This document shows, piece by piece, positions 32,877 through 39,196 of a stretch of 41,522 nt of DNA. The DNA comes from a virus, in IMG/VR virus record IMGVR_UViG_3300028610_000622, positions 1 to 41,522 of that record; one strand, given 5' to 3'. The notes below the pieces were generated by a model that worked only from the letters and a program-made list of their open reading frames with translations, ran no database searches and had not been told where the DNA came from. The position numbers were made by a program, and so were the translations under genes. Within the stretch, counting starts at the first letter, position 1, and each line of letters opens with the position of its first letter.

Positions 32877-33752
32877 ATGGCAGACTCTTTTGAAGCGACT
32901 ATGGGGCATAAGACCCACATGTCAATGGTCATTACGGCGGGTGGGGCGCCTGTCAATACGGCATTGCCCATGCCGGTCGTCAGTGAGACACTTGCCAAGC
33001 GGCAGGTCCTCCTGGAGAGACAAGGGCTGCGCGGAGTTAGGGGCCGCGATATAGATGACCTCGCGGTAGGTCCGCACACGGTGGAAGGGACGATTGTCTT
33101 GGAGCCGACGTCAGCGGAACTCGTCTACTTGTGGTTTGCGGCCGGGATCGGCACTGGAGTCGGCGTAGAACCGCTGCCGGTGGTCACCCTCGTTATTGAC
33201 CGTGGGGTGAGTGTCTTCACCTACGCAAGCTGCAAGTTGAGCCGGTTGACCCTGTCGAGTTCGCAAGGCGGCCTGCTACAGGCCTCCTGTGACTTCGTGG
33301 CACTGGACGAGTCGGTCGGCGGTGCGGTCGCCGAACCGGCGACCGCCTTGCCGATGTCGCACGGCAATTCCACGCTGGTCATCGGCGCGGTCGATCCCGC
33401 CCCTTGTCTGGAGTATACGTTCACGGTCGACAACGCGGTCGAGTCCGGCCGGTTCCTAATGGGCCTGACGATACCGGAGGCAGTGGCTACCGATCGCCGG
33501 GTAACGCTTTCGGCAACCCTCCCCTACAATGCCACAAATAAGGCGCTTATAGACGGAAACGTTGCCGGCGTGGAAGCCGTGTTGGTGATAGGCGACGGGA
33601 CCAATACGCACGAGATCACCATGACAAAGGTTGCCGGCGGTGCCGAGACGCCGGCAACCGGCGGCCGTTCTGAAATCACCATCCCGATCAACCTGACGGC
33701 CTACAAGGACGCCGCCACCACGGGCGAAGCCCAGGTGGTAGTCGGCCCGTGA
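32877..33752 (+). CDS. Probable major tail tube protein
   Basis: This 291-residue beta-rich protein has ATG 32877 behind GGAAAGGCCAAATC. The first 210 residues contain paired strands (VGPHTVEGTIVLEPTSAELV, KLSRLTLSSSQGGLLQASCD) as in tube proteins. Place and size just before the chaperone pair support the call. The last 80 residues could be an extra surface domain. Its final codons overlap the sulfotransferase start (GTGA). Confidence 0.65.
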   Translation: MADSFEATMGHKTHMSMVITAGGAPVNTALPMPVVSETLAKRQVLLERQGLRGVRGRDIDDLAVGPHTVEGTIVLEPTSAELVYLWFAAGIGTGVGVEPLPVVTLVIDRGVSVFTYASCKLSRLTLSSSQGGLLQASCDFVALDESVGGAVAEPATALPMSHGNSTLVIGAVDPAPCLEYTFTVDNAVESGRFLMGLTIPEAVATDRRVTLSATLPYNATNKALIDGNVAGVEAVLVIGDGTNTHEITMTKVAGGAETPATGGRSEITIPINLTAYKDAATTGEAQVVVGP

Positions 33753-34390
33753 CGCGAGCCCTTTTCCTCTGGGTGCCTAAGACCGCCGGATCGAGCATCT
33801 GGGCCGCGATAAAGGCCAGCGGTGAAACCTATCAGGAGCTTTGTTATCCGAACCATATCGACCAATACCAGCCGGAACCACGGTTCACAACGTGGGGACA
33901 TTGCCACGTCGGGACTCTCATCGAGGCGGGGCGGTGCCGGGTTTTCTGCCCGCTTACCGGTGCCTTTACCTTCGCCTTCGTCCGCAATCCGTGGGACCGG
34001 CTGGTCTCTTTGTTCCATTACGAATCCCAGAAGCGAAACCTCAACCCCGACGGCTTCCGCAATTACATCCGCATGGTTACGCGCGGGGCGATCGACCCGA
34101 TTGGCGCATACAATGAGCAGGGCCACTCCAAGGCCAACCGCCAACTCGACTGGCTCCGCTGGGGCGACCGCTGGCTACCCGACTTCGTGGGTCGCTTCGA
34201 GAACCTGGAAGCCGACTGGAGAACCGTCTGCGGGGAACTCGGGATAGACGCCCCGCTGCCACACCACAACGCCAGCAACCACGACCACTACAGCACCTAC
34301 TATACCGATGCGTTAGCCCGGCGGGTCGCCGTCCGATTCGCCGAAGAGATAGACATGTTTCACTATACCTTTCAGGAATCGCCCTTATGA
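33749..34390 (+). CDS. Sulfotransferase (Sulfotransfer_2-like) in the tail operon
   Basis: This 213-residue protein starts at GTG 33749 overlapping the tube gene stop. The 5'-phosphosulfate loop is VPKTAGSSIW (residues 9-18). The 3'-phosphate site is AFVRNPWDRLVSLFHY (76-91), with the conserved Arg and downstream Ser. These bind PAPS and define the fold. GHCHVG and HNASNHDHYSTYYTDALAR are also family-like. It would transfer sulfate to a carbohydrate or other hydroxyl acceptor. Translational coupling to tail genes suggests a virion or tail glycan substrate; this is inference. Confidence 0.85.
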   Translation: MTRALFLWVPKTAGSSIWAAIKASGETYQELCYPNHIDQYQPEPRFTTWGHCHVGTLIEAGRCRVFCPLTGAFTFAFVRNPWDRLVSLFHYESQKRNLNPDGFRNYIRMVTRGAIDPIGAYNEQGHSKANRQLDWLRWGDRWLPDFVGRFENLEADWRTVCGELGIDAPLPHHNASNHDHYSTYYTDALARRVAVRFAEEIDMFHYTFQESPL

Positions 34391-34833
34391 CAAACAACCT
34401 AAACTACACACCGGATGACGGCTACACCGAGCCCGGCTACATCAAGCCGGTGATTGGCTTGCACGGAGAGTTCCGGTTTCGGTTCCGGCCGATGCTCACC
34501 GAGGAGTACAGCCACCTGATAGCCGCGTCGGACGAAATGAGCGGCCAGGCCTACGACCGCAAAGCGGCCGACATGATGCTAGGCAAGCTGACCGAGTGGA
34601 ACCTGAGCGACGGCAAGGGCGTGCTCGTCCCGATCACACAGAAGACCATCCTCCGTCTGAAGGTCGCGTTATTCAACAAACTGTACAAGATCATTACCGG
34701 TACCGACGCGACCGACATCGATCCGCTGTGGTCCGACGATATTACCGACACGAAGGCCGACGAAGAATACGAGTCGGCGTTGAGCGACCGGACGCCGGGT
34801 GAGGTCCGCGAAGAGAACGACGCAAAAAACTAA
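34387..34833 (+). CDS. Tail assembly chaperone, short form (lambda G-like)
   Basis: This 148-residue protein starts at ATG 34387 (ATGA overlap). It is helical and acidic towards the end (TEEYSHLIAASDEMSGQAYD, ILRLKVALFNKLYKIITGTD). It lies between tube and tape measure genes, as tail chaperones do. Its last codons GCA AAA AAC TAA contain the slip site that yields the long form. Confidence 0.75.
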   Translation: MTNNLNYTPDDGYTEPGYIKPVIGLHGEFRFRFRPMLTEEYSHLIAASDEMSGQAYDRKAADMMLGKLTEWNLSDGKGVLVPITQKTILRLKVALFNKLYKIITGTDATDIDPLWSDDITDTKADEEYESALSDRTPGEVREENDAKN

Positions 34834-35216
34834 GGCGCGGGGTAGCCCTACTTCTGGCCGACCCCGCGATAGCATCGCTGAGGTGCGACGAATGCGTGGC
34901 ATGGATAATCGACGAAGAGACCGGCCAACGGAAGATCAGCCGTGGCGTCGAGGTCCCGAGGCCGCCTGGTACAATGCCGCCATGCGTGAAGTGTGCGAAG
35001 TGCCAAGGGCGCCCATACGGCGAACAACGGCCGGCCGTTGGCAGACTATCGGAGCTGAGCCGGAAGAACCGGCGGACGCTATGGGCCTACTATGAGCATG
35101 AGGCCTGCGGCGGACAGATAACCGACCCGATCACCCGGCGGAACTTCGGCACCATCCGGTGGTTGATAGATAAACTTGGTAGAGACGTGTCTACGGCGGC
35201 ATTAGCACGGGGCTGA
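34387..35216 (+). CDS. Tail assembly chaperone, -1 frameshift fusion (lambda GT-like)
   Basis: Ribosomes slipping back one base at A_AAA_AAC (34824-34830) leave the zero frame before TAA. They continue as CTA AGG CGC GGG GTA to TGA 35214-35216, giving a predicted 276-residue fusion with 128 new residues. The T part begins LRRGVALLLADPAIASLRCD, then ECVAWIIDEETGQRK, and holds a CVKCAKC cysteine cluster. In lambda the GT form binds the tape measure and recruits tube subunits. The downstream frame has no convincing independent start. Confidence 0.8.
34824..34868 (+). promoter_or_regulatory. -1 programmed ribosomal frameshift signal
   Basis: The slippery heptamer A AAA AAC is at 34824-34830 in the zero frame. 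The spacer TAAGG is 34831-34835. The stem CGCGGGGT (34836-34843) pairs perfectly with ACCCCGCG (34861-34868) across a 17-base loop. All elements have textbook type and spacing. Confidence 0.85.
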
Positions 35217-35217
35217 C

Positions 35218-37206
35218 ATGGTAGTAGCAGTAGGTGACAGCAGCCGGGAAGTGGTCATCACGCTAGGCGTGGCGCTCGATCCCAAGACAGCCAAGGTCTT
35301 TCAGGACACCGCCAAGGCCGCCCAGAAGGCCCAGGATACGGTCTCGAAGGCCACCGCCAAAGCTGCCGACGATGGCGCTAAGGCCGTCGCCAAGGCGGAG
35401 GCCGCCAAGTCAAAGATTCTCGACGCTAACGTCAAAGTGCGGGCCAAGCTTGACAAGCAAGCGGCCAAAGAGCAGGCAACGGAGATTGCGGCCAACATCC
35501 GCAACGAGGCCAAGCTGCGGGCCAAGTTCCGCACTGACCTGGCTCGAAGCGAACGGGACGCACAACGGGAGAGGGCTCGCGGCGAGCGGGAGGCACAACG
35601 CAACCGGGACCAATTGCTCCGCGAAGAGTCCCGAGAGATAGAAGCCAATATCCGGGAGCGGGAGAAAGCGGCGAAAGACGCGGAGCGAGCAATTGCCCGC
35701 GAACGGCGAACCAACTCGATCGAGTTCCGCAACGCACAAACCAAGGTTCGCACCGAAAACAGGAAGCTCACCGCGTCGTTCCGGGGCGTTGCCGCCGGTG
35801 TAGCCAACGTGGCACGCGGCGTAGCTATCCTGGGTATCGTCGGCGAGAAGGACATAGAGAAGCTTGTCCGCTCGTTGCTAAAGGTGCAAGCCGGGATCGA
35901 CGTATTCCGTGGTTCGATCCAAACGGTGCTTGCATTGGTCCGAGGCTGGCAAGCCTACCGGGCAGCCGTAACGGCAGCCGCCGTGGCTCAAGGCACACTG
36001 GCAACCGCCCAAGCCGTGACCGTCGCCGGCGGCATCGCAGGCGGGGTCGGGGGCAAGGTGGCGCGAGGGCCCGTTAAGGGGGCTATTCCTCCTGTAATCT
36101 CAGGCCTTGGTGGCCTTGGGGTGGGTGCGGGGGGGGCGAAGGTTGCCGGTGGCGGTGGCTTGGCGGCGGCAGGGACAGCAGCCGCTCCGTTCGCCGCTGG
36201 AGCGGCTGCGGGATTTGGTGTGGGCGCGGCGGGGACCGCGATATACGAGACCGGTAGGGGAATCGCGAAAAGCGGATTTGGCGGTGGCACACAAGTTGGC
36301 GGCCCCTCGGACATCATCGGTGGGTTAGAGAGTAGTCTCTTCAGTGGTGCCGCCGGTTTGGTGGGCCTCGACCCACTCGGGTTCCGACGTCAAGAGCGAC
36401 AAGCGGAGCGGCAGAGGATCACCAATATACGCCTCTCGGCGAATGAGCAGATAGGCACCATTCAGGCCGCCGCAAACCGCGACTTCCGCGCCCGCAACAT
36501 CACCACGCTAGGTGGTGCCCAAGAAGAGTTGGCGGCGTCGAAAGCCGCGTCGGGTGTCGGCTCGGCAGCGCAACGTACCGCCAACGACCTCCGCACCATC
36601 CAGGCTGCCCAGCAGGTCCTCCGGTTCCGCAAGGAAGGTTTGGAGGTGACCCAGGAGCAATCGCGCGTTGAGCTTACCGCACAACAGAAGACACTGACCG
36701 GCCTACAAAGGCAGCTCGCCCTGAAGAAGAGCGAACGCGACGCGGCGATCAACGCCAGCCGCTCGGCTTTCCAGCGATTCGGGGCATTGACCGGCATCGA
36801 GCAGGCACAGGCAAAGGCCGCGTTTGCCCGCGTCAAGGCGGGGCGGGGGTCGCGAGAAGATGAGATCCGTGTCCAGTCACTTGGGGCCGCCCTGACCGGC
36901 GGCATTGGCGGCGAAGCGTTAGAGGAGCGTGGCCGGCGTGGTGCAGGCGGACTCTTCGGCGCTGACTTCCGAATCGGCGAACTCAACCGACAGGTCCGTG
37001 GTGCCGAGGCCGCCGCGGGCCGTCAAGACGAGCTAGTCATCCGGTTGATAAACGACGGTGAGGCCGCTATCGAGGGTGCCGCCGTGGGAGACAAGGAATT
37101 CGAGCGGGAGATATTAGAAGCGACCAACCGGTTGGCGAAACGGGAGGCGGATCGGCAGATCGGGGCGGTTCGCGAGCAGGCACAACTAGCAGCCGGGGAG
37201 CCGTAA
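35218..37206 (+). CDS. Tail tape measure protein
   Basis: This 662-residue protein follows the chaperone pair directly. Residues 20-185 are a long, highly charged helix (KAEAAKSKILDANVKVRAKL, SERDAQRERARGEREAQRNR). Residues about 240-345 are Ala/Gly-rich and hydrophobic, as in the membrane-crossing part of tape measures. Residues 385-660 are helical again with Gln/Arg-rich repeats. At about 1.5 angstrom per residue it would set a tail near 100 nm. ATG 35218 is weakly sited but the frame is clear. Confidence 0.75.
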   Translation: MVVAVGDSSREVVITLGVALDPKTAKVFQDTAKAAQKAQDTVSKATAKAADDGAKAVAKAEAAKSKILDANVKVRAKLDKQAAKEQATEIAANIRNEAKLRAKFRTDLARSERDAQRERARGEREAQRNRDQLLREESREIEANIREREKAAKDAERAIARERRTNSIEFRNAQTKVRTENRKLTASFRGVAAGVANVARGVAILGIVGEKDIEKLVRSLLKVQAGIDVFRGSIQTVLALVRGWQAYRAAVTAAAVAQGTLATAQAVTVAGGIAGGVGGKVARGPVKGAIPPVISGLGGLGVGAGGAKVAGGGGLAAAGTAAAPFAAGAAAGFGVGAAGTAIYETGRGIAKSGFGGGTQVGGPSDIIGGLESSLFSGAAGLVGLDPLGFRRQERQAERQRITNIRLSANEQIGTIQAAANRDFRARNITTLGGAQEELAASKAASGVGSAAQRTANDLRTIQAAQQVLRFRKEGLEVTQEQSRVELTAQQKTLTGLQRQLALKKSERDAAINASRSAFQRFGALTGIEQAQAKAAFARVKAGRGSREDEIRVQSLGAALTGGIGGEALEERGRRGAGGLFGADFRIGELNRQVRGAEAAAGRQDELVIRLINDGEAAIEGAAVGDKEFEREILEATNRLAKREADRQIGAVREQAQLAAGEP

Positions 37207-37936: not shown

Positions 37937-39196
37937 ATGGCACTCAATAGATGGATAGGCGGGGCGGCTGCGGTCGCTCAGGTGCAGACCGAGACCGTGG
38001 CCGACACATGGGCCAATGCTCAACCCGATACGCTGACCGCCACGATCAACAATAAGGACGTGGTTTTCACGGTCGGCGCCACGGAAACGGTCTCGGCTGT
38101 TGTCGCCGGTATGGTCGCGGCGTGGAATGCGTCGACCGTTCCCGAACACGCCGAAATTACAGCGGTAGATGCCGATCCCGATATCGTCTTTACCGCCGAC
38201 ATCGCTGGCATCCCCTTCATCCTCACGTTAGTTGCTGACACAGCCGGAGACGGTGACGTCAGTTCGGTGGCCACCACGGCCGCAACGGGGCCGAACCATG
38301 CCGACAGCGCCGCTAACTGGTCGTTAGGCGCCGTGCCCGTCAACACAAACGAGGTCATTATAGAGGATTCGTCAGTTCCCATTCTCTACGGTTTCGATCA
38401 GTCAGGGGTGGCACTGGCAAGTTGCGACATAAAGCAGTCATACACCGGCACGATCGGGCTTCCGACTCAGAACGCCAACGGGTACGCGGAGTACCGGGAA
38501 CAATACCTGAAGATCGACCCGGGCGTATTGACCATCGGTGAAGGCGGGGGCACCGGCAGCGGACGCATCAAGATCGACCATGGGGCAGAGCCCCAGGTGA
38601 TTACGGTCCTGGGCTCAGGAGCCCGGGCCGAGCCCGGTATCCCGTCGATTCTCCTGAAGGGCAGCGACGGGGCGAATACGCTCGCAATAAACAGGGGTGA
38701 CGTCGGCGTGGCGATATTCGGAGGTGAATCTGCGGAATATGCAAGCCTCGCGATCGGCTACACAACCAGCCAACCGACCGACGCCAGAGTCATCACCGGC
38801 GGCTCGGTGACTTTACCGGTCGTGGATAAGTCCGGAGGGACGCTTGATCTGGGTGCCGCCAGCCTGACCACGGTGACTCAGAGCGCCGGCGAAATGACCT
38901 TGCGGTCTACCTCCGACATAGTGAATACGCTCAAACTCGACGGCGGGATTTGTTACGACATGGGGGGCGTCAACACGGTTGGCACCCTGACGATAGCAGA
39001 GGCCGCCGAATACAATCACGATAAGAGCCACGCCGCACGGACCATCACTAATATCACGATGGTCAAGGGCGCCATCTTCACCGATACCTTCGGCGTAACT
39101 ACTCAAACCTACGGCTTCGATCTATCGCTGACTAAACTCGAAGACGTCGTCATACATCTACCGCCCAACAAGACCTGGACCCCTTCCGCGATTTAA
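37937..39196 (+). CDS. Beta-solenoid tail-tip or fibre-like protein, 419 aa
   Basis: ATG 37937 follows AAGGGGCGAAC. Residues 1-115 form a separate beta domain (AVAQVQTETVADTWANAQPD). From about residue 120 (NHADSAANWSLGAVPVNTNE) it turns into a solenoid with Gly/Thr-rich turns (GGSVTLPVVDKSGGTLDLGA). This is the same style as the solenoid protein encoded at 16246-19176, including an NW entry motif. It is encoded in the tail operon and may form or decorate the tail tip. Confidence 0.55.
   Translation: MALNRWIGGAAAVAQVQTETVADTWANAQPDTLTATINNKDVVFTVGATETVSAVVAGMVAAWNASTVPEHAEITAVDADPDIVFTADIAGIPFILTLVADTAGDGDVSSVATTAATGPNHADSAANWSLGAVPVNTNEVIIEDSSVPILYGFDQSGVALASCDIKQSYTGTIGLPTQNANGYAEYREQYLKIDPGVLTIGEGGGTGSGRIKIDHGAEPQVITVLGSGARAEPGIPSILLKGSDGANTLAINRGDVGVAIFGGESAEYASLAIGYTTSQPTDARVITGGSVTLPVVDKSGGTLDLGAASLTTVTQSAGEMTLRSTSDIVNTLKLDGGICYDMGGVNTVGTLTIAEAAEYNHDKSHAARTITNITMVKGAIFTDTFGVTTQTYGFDLSLTKLEDVVIHLPPNKTWTPSAI

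Follow-up and report, generated by a model that had tools for sequence, protein, structure and literature searches.

A probable -1 frameshifted tail chaperone pair with a four-cysteine T domain in a virus and its diverged relatives

The virus described here very probably encodes a G/GT pair of tail assembly chaperones that would be produced by a -1 ribosomal slip on the heptamer A AAA AAC, aided by a downstream hairpin, in which GT would recruit the tail tube protein through a T domain built on four cysteines (Cys4). Judged by alignment, the heptamer, its register, the hairpin, the -1-frame protein and its cysteines are conserved in strongly diverged relatives, and seen across these relatives a programmed -1 frameshift yielding G and GT appears very likely. 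The initial annotation of this DNA had proposed such a frameshifted pair, and with these elements conserved it is the best reading of the site. The basic G/GT scheme is already well known; what is new in comparison with lambda-type pairs is the Cys4 T domain and a stop codon that abuts the slip site. The analysis adds an apparently unnamed family of tail chaperones, spread over virus contigs and Planctomycetota-linked genomes, whose frameshift signal is strongly conserved and whose T domain looks like a metal site.

Layout of the site among the tail genes

The window, by which we mean the whole stretch of DNA analysed, is a 41.5-kb virus record (IMGVR_UViG_3300028610_000622; 41,522 nt). The features of interest are the following.

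32877..33752, + strand: tail tube gene (Phage_tube_2, E 1.4e-23, Pfam; phrog_290, E 1.7e-23, PHROG)
33749-34390, + strand: sulfotransferase gene (Sulfotransfer_2, E 5.7e-8, Pfam; phrog_3347, E 2.9e-22, PHROG)
34387..34833, + strand: G, the putative short tail assembly chaperone, 148 aa, C-terminus ...DAKN-stop (ORF; 14 aligned homologs; AF2 model)
34824..34830, + strand: slippery heptamer A AAA AAC (canonical X XXY YYZ, same register in relatives)
34831..34833, + strand: zero-frame stop TAA, immediately 3' of the heptamer
34836..34868, + strand: putative stimulatory hairpin, 8-bp stem of 34836-34843 with 34861-34868 (folding, protein-preserving null)
34830..35216, + strand: T domain, the predicted -1-frame extension, 128 codons (34830-35213) plus stop TGA (conserved alignment, AF2 model)
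34884..34895, + strand: first CxxC of T, residues 19-22 (invariant, 14/14 rows)
34983..35003, + strand: second cysteine pair of T, C52-x2-C55, plus C58 in this virus (C52 and C55 invariant in 14/14 rows)
35218..37206, + strand: probable tape measure gene, 662 aa (from position and size only)

The G/T site is thus placed between the tail tube gene and the presumed tape measure gene, for which no Pfam or PHROG match was found, with the sulfotransferase gene intervening. The sulfotransferase gene overlaps each of its neighbours, the tail tube gene and G, by 4 nt and is an odd cargo within a tail operon.

The zero frame ends with GCA AAA AAC TAA, the heptamer abutting the stop. All the parts of the cassette that had been described from the letters of this virus are in place: the heptamer at 34824-34830 lies in the frame of the ORF 34387-34833, the 5-nt spacer 34831-34835 contains the TAA, and the 8-bp stem is perfect. 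Folding of the 45 nt from 34831, which had been suggested as a check, gave this same spacer and stem at -21.7 kcal/mol (z -2.8), and only 2 of 200 shuffles folded as stably; against a null that preserves the T protein, the window hairpin reached p = 0.023 (the same sequence is counted below as L005). The -1 frame is open for 128 codons as stated, whereas its claimed extension to the base before the tape measure gene needs a correction of one or two bases, since the TGA ends at 35216 and one base (35217) separates it from the start of the next gene at 35218.

The motif AAAAAAC occurs three times on the + strand of the window and not at all on the - strand.

Relatives and the conserved slip signal

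Among the window proteins, neither G nor T has a Pfam match at E ≤ 1, and among the PHROGs G is without a match and T has only a chance-level one (E 0.045). DNA and protein searches of a phages collection (50,697 records) gave no match for G, T and the next gene taken together, for G, for T, for the tail tube or for the gene at 37937-39196, nor did that collection match T of the window, of L077 or of L054. Scanning viral contigs with the single proteins G, T and tail tube returned the same virus only, as a near-identical contig, and a terminase search yielded one further relative and distant phages, which did not enter the later comparisons. It was the major capsid protein that opened the family: beyond this virus it led to 52 viral loci, at 26-49% identity, and public genome bins contributed another 13, at 37-49% identity. 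Twelve of the 13 bin loci are labelled Planctomycetota, Pirellulales, Planctomycetia or Planctomycetaceae, the other being labelled only 'bacterium', which points to a planctomycete (Planctomycetota) as the probable host.

T was found in 11 of the 66 capsid-related loci, and many of the remaining contigs are cut off too soon to show whether it is there. The first clear pair was that of L006, with the same A AAA AAC TAA and with BLASTP identities of 40% for G and 30% for T. Profiles of G and T gave ten seed pairs. With the T profile, T was found in two of the eight genomes behind capsid-related loci and in at least 15 of 392 genomes from the phylum of G002 (Planctomycetota; the genome that holds L060), with up to 10 candidates scored in each genome, and the G profile found G in 14 of 392 genomes in an equal-sized draw, 12 of them also with T. 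Of the 15 surveyed genomes with a T match, 12 have G immediately upstream of it. Further viral loci came from a two-row G alignment and from T peptide patterns. All non-seed loci were found by T/G profiles or T/G peptide patterns, and no query demands the heptamer, with the caveat that the last base of the heptamer belongs also to the first T residue.

Several loci were left out of the counts: L001-L004 and L091 (the same virus as the window, counted as L005), L030 (equal to L029), L093 (from the record of L006), L073 (at the position of L067), L101-L102 (whose site is that of L085 or a near copy of it, both fitting the pattern), L104-L113 (at the positions of T loci found earlier) and L089 (T match at E 7e-4 with three internal stops). 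L038 and L094 carry G on contigs that end before the T region.

A canonical X XXY YYZ heptamer was found in the same register in all 31 intact distinct T loci, out of 34 distinct loci examined. Ten of the 31 are seeds in which the T start was set at the heptamer, and the fair test is given by the non-seed loci, in which 21 of 21 fit (17/17 intact, plus 4/4 new ones, L098, L099, L100 and L103). The heptamer is A AAA AAC in 27 of the 31 loci, G GGA AAC in two, G GGA AAA in one and A AAA AAA in one. In the first set of 30 distinct T loci, 27 were intact, and in all 27 the heptamer precedes the first T column by exactly six bases (23 A AAA AAC, 2 G GGA AAC, 1 G GGA AAA, 1 A AAA AAA). In-register slippery heptamers occur at this place in 27 of these 27 loci, ten of them seeds, versus three times in their 3686 other G codons; the heptamer at the G end exceeds chance expectation. 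Moreover, the A run is not explained by codon bias, because in the rest of the G frames lysine is encoded more often by AAG than by AAA (129 versus 81). The codon after the heptamer is a zero-frame stop in 29 of the 31 loci (25/27 and 4/4 new loci), with 13 TAA, 8 TGA and 4 TAG among the 25, and in L020 and L079 the stop comes 4 and 8 codons later, respectively.

The three exceptions among the 34 distinct loci (L087, L088 and L090) are degenerate or distant. The heptamer is absent from L090, which has a zero frame of 25 codons, and from L087, in which a T piece lies within a 510-codon frame; these T remnants without slip site are probably those of decayed prophages. The distant L088 has A AAT TTT displaced by one codon and a stop four codons on. 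One further locus (L114, 157-640) has G (E 1.4e-7) with neither T nor heptamer, and the next long gene begins shortly after it.

Sequencing errors are frequent in homopolymer runs, and the site could in principle consist of two overlapping genes split by such an error or of a pseudogene. A second contig, L002, carries the same site with one base different in 6384 and with G and T proteins 100% identical, and the layout recurs in every one of the 31 intact distinct loci. This explanation is refuted by the relatives and we give it practically no weight.

The hairpin was compared with a null in which the T protein and the local codon use are preserved and the zero-frame stop is free to change. 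Over the first 50 nt past the heptamer, stability exceeds this null at p ≤ 0.05 in 21 of 31 loci (mean z -2.17), whereas in five later control windows of T this level is reached in 0-3 of 30-31 loci (mean z -0.37 to 0.27). In the run on 27 loci, 18 were at p ≤ 0.03 and 9 above 0.05. When a 10-bp stem is imposed in a fixed register, 67.8% of cells are paired versus 36-57% in slid registers, and 9 of the 10 pairs are changed on both sides among relatives. Support from covariation as such is weak: the score is 0.210 versus 0.207 for the structure slid by -3, with 20 versus 20 further pair types. RNAalifold gave no consensus structure for the 27-row alignment and, in our own reading of the per-locus folds, the stem register is shifted by a base between subgroups. 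As the fixed-register stem is weak and RNAalifold came out empty, the case for the hairpin rests on the per-locus null with its position controls.

Upstream of the heptamer, pairing of the Shine-Dalgarno (SD) kind is stronger than in other windows of G (mean -6.7 versus -3.4 kcal/mol), and in 13 of 27 loci at most 10% of the other G windows equal it. The best SD-like stretch of the window is not clearly placed, at about 18 nt upstream of the heptamer, and we claim no stimulatory role for it there.

Such SD-like sequences upstream of many sites could also be read as start signals, T then being a separate gene with its own start or with termination-reinitiation at the G stop, and the heptamer being incidental. 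Two other features go in this direction, namely a GTG at codon 5 in several relatives and the TAATG of L006 (10957-10965), in which an ATG at T codon 2 overlaps the G stop alongside the slip site, so that reinitiation could possibly make nearly all of T in that locus. The start codons themselves argue otherwise. In 23 of 27 loci the T frame has no ATG, GTG or TTG up to and including codon 4 (L006, L007, L096 and L097 do have one), and in three of the 27, this virus, L029 and L076, there is no such codon in the T frame before Cys19. In the window the first one is the GTG at 34896, that is, codon 23. An independent start for the frame 34896-35216, which the initial annotation had named as a finding that would speak against frameshifting, fares badly, since it falls past two invariant cysteines (C19 and C22) and conserved residues. 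Besides, a distance of about 18 nt or more from an SD sequence to a start is too far for ordinary initiation, and by our own reading the SD-like stretch mostly stands before the heptamer, about 18 nt or more from codon 5. Reinitiation would moreover have no need of a heptamer that is kept in 31 of 31 intact distinct loci. A separate T gene was rejected on the lack of a start before codon 23 here and on the conserved heptamer, and we consider it very improbable. As the first usual start codon comes after the first CxxC, gene callers are expected to miss or truncate T in the window.

The frames could also be joined by transcriptional slippage on the A run, the usual site having six A's. Ribosomal frameshifting is typically marked by a downstream hairpin and an X XXY YYZ register, and both are found here. 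Four of the 31 sites differ from A AAA AAC, three being of GGGAAA type without a long A run and one A AAA AAA. Furthermore, the usual run of six A's is below the length at which transcriptional realignment is named in the available text of PMC3711429, which is more than 7 A's. Transcriptional slippage was rejected on the GGGAAA-type sites, the hairpin and the register, and it appears to us still less credible than a separate T gene; we keep to ribosomal -1 frameshifting in what follows.

The G protein and the Cys4 T domain

The AF2 model of G has a pLDDT of 84.0. Its top-ranked folds in the PDB are the HK97 tail assembly chaperone (2ob9) and Bacillus YqbN (3klu), which we take to be a phage-tail chaperone, and the similarity is weak in both cases (Foldseek E 1.4 and 2.5; Z 5.3 each; 6-11% identity). 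The family Phage_TAC_4 was touched by one of ten G rows (E 0.018) and by none of the others. G thus weakly resembles tail chaperones of the HK97 type, which is consistent with its position and layout.

In an alignment of 14 T domains, one of them shortened by a contig end, C19, C22, C52, C55 and K57 are invariant; T of this virus has its CxxC at 19/22, followed by C52, C55 and C58. The cysteine cluster that had been pointed out as unusual for a fused domain of this kind is therefore real, its four cysteines being kept in 14 of 14 aligned domains. Two cysteine pairs with such spacing suggest a zinc site, and the sequence suggests that the Cys4 site of T holds a zinc ion. On the 14-row alignment, AF2 modelled T with a pLDDT of 87.9 and a pTM of 0.74.

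With ten rows of T, 0 of 10 had a Pfam match at E ≤ 1, the best NCBIfam match was at E 0.25 and the best PHROG match at E 0.022, both at chance level. Against the PDB, T had no significant sequence or fold match, which does not prove a new fold. In BFVD one match of probability 1.00 was obtained (A0A6J5RFK5, E 0.043, 30% identity), an uncharacterised protein of an uncultured Caudovirales phage. Among the papers that the literature searches listed, titles and abstract beginnings gave no cysteine or zinc T domain, and narrower queries came back empty.

Proposed mode of action and comparison with known systems

We infer from sequence both the slipping and its rate. Most ribosomes would terminate at the TAA at 34831-34833 and release G of 148 aa, and a minority would move back by one base at A AAA AAC, stimulated by the hairpin that begins 5 nt further on, and would produce GT, which is G followed by the 128-residue T domain. 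For the mode of action of the pair, that of lambda G/GT is the likeliest by analogy. In the available text of PMC5009743 and PMC4493119, gpG of lambda attaches to the tape measure protein, and the tail tube protein is bound by the T portion of gpGT; in the literature consulted, what is said of the role of T goes back to lambda and TP901-1. By the lambda scheme, G would cover the tape measure protein, and a few copies of GT would recruit the tail tube protein (32877..33752), the likely partner of T, through a domain organised about four cysteines that most likely bind a zinc ion. The binding of T to the tail tube protein is assumed here from the lambda analogy.

The likeness to lambda G/GT lies in a -1 slip near the end of G with T as a C-terminal extension, and in the location between the tail tube gene and a long gene taken as the tape measure. 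Unlike in lambda G/GT, the zero-frame stop directly abuts the heptamer here, in 29 of 31 loci. The T domain also has four invariant cysteines and no significant match to the named families, a distinction from lambda G/GT that is drawn at the level of family models. The signal resembles that of E. coli dnaX, which, in the available text of PMC3711429, has an A-rich heptamer, a downstream hairpin and an upstream SD-like stretch; such a stretch is present in many relatives. It differs from dnaX in the heptamer, which is A AAA AAG there, and in the SD-like stretch of the window, whose placement is unclear.

We think that the compact and confidently modelled Cys4 T may be a testable alternative solution for recruiting the tail tube. 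A more elaborate version, which we find rather doubtful, would have the stop behind the heptamer make slipping compete with the release factor, partly while the stop occupies the A site and the slip codons the E and P sites, so that the termination speed of the host would set the G:GT ratio and, by way of it, tail assembly; in addition, Cys4 T would act as a separate, metal-dependent module for recruiting the tube, in place of the cysteine-free T modules of sister phages.

Cysteine-free candidates do exist among the capsid-related phages. When 33 capsid-related loci lacking T were scanned mechanically, nine showed a slip heptamer and a cysteine-free -1 frame of 70-86 aa (L011 8765, L036 15023, L055 15025; L022 15738, L026 7132, L027 14274; L042 16454, L045 14527, L046 18427); 15 of the 33 gave nothing and the remainder single unassessed frames. 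These frames share with Cys4 T a slip heptamer near the end of an ORF and a location downstream of the capsid gene. If they are tail chaperones, for which they are candidates, Cys4 T would be one of several T modules in related phages.

As a separate observation, L115 has a G-like gene at about 99-1040 (E 9.8e-6) with an in-register GGGAAAA 67 nt before its stop, and the -1 frame there holds a different cysteine cluster, which is possibly a second kind of cysteine T domain.
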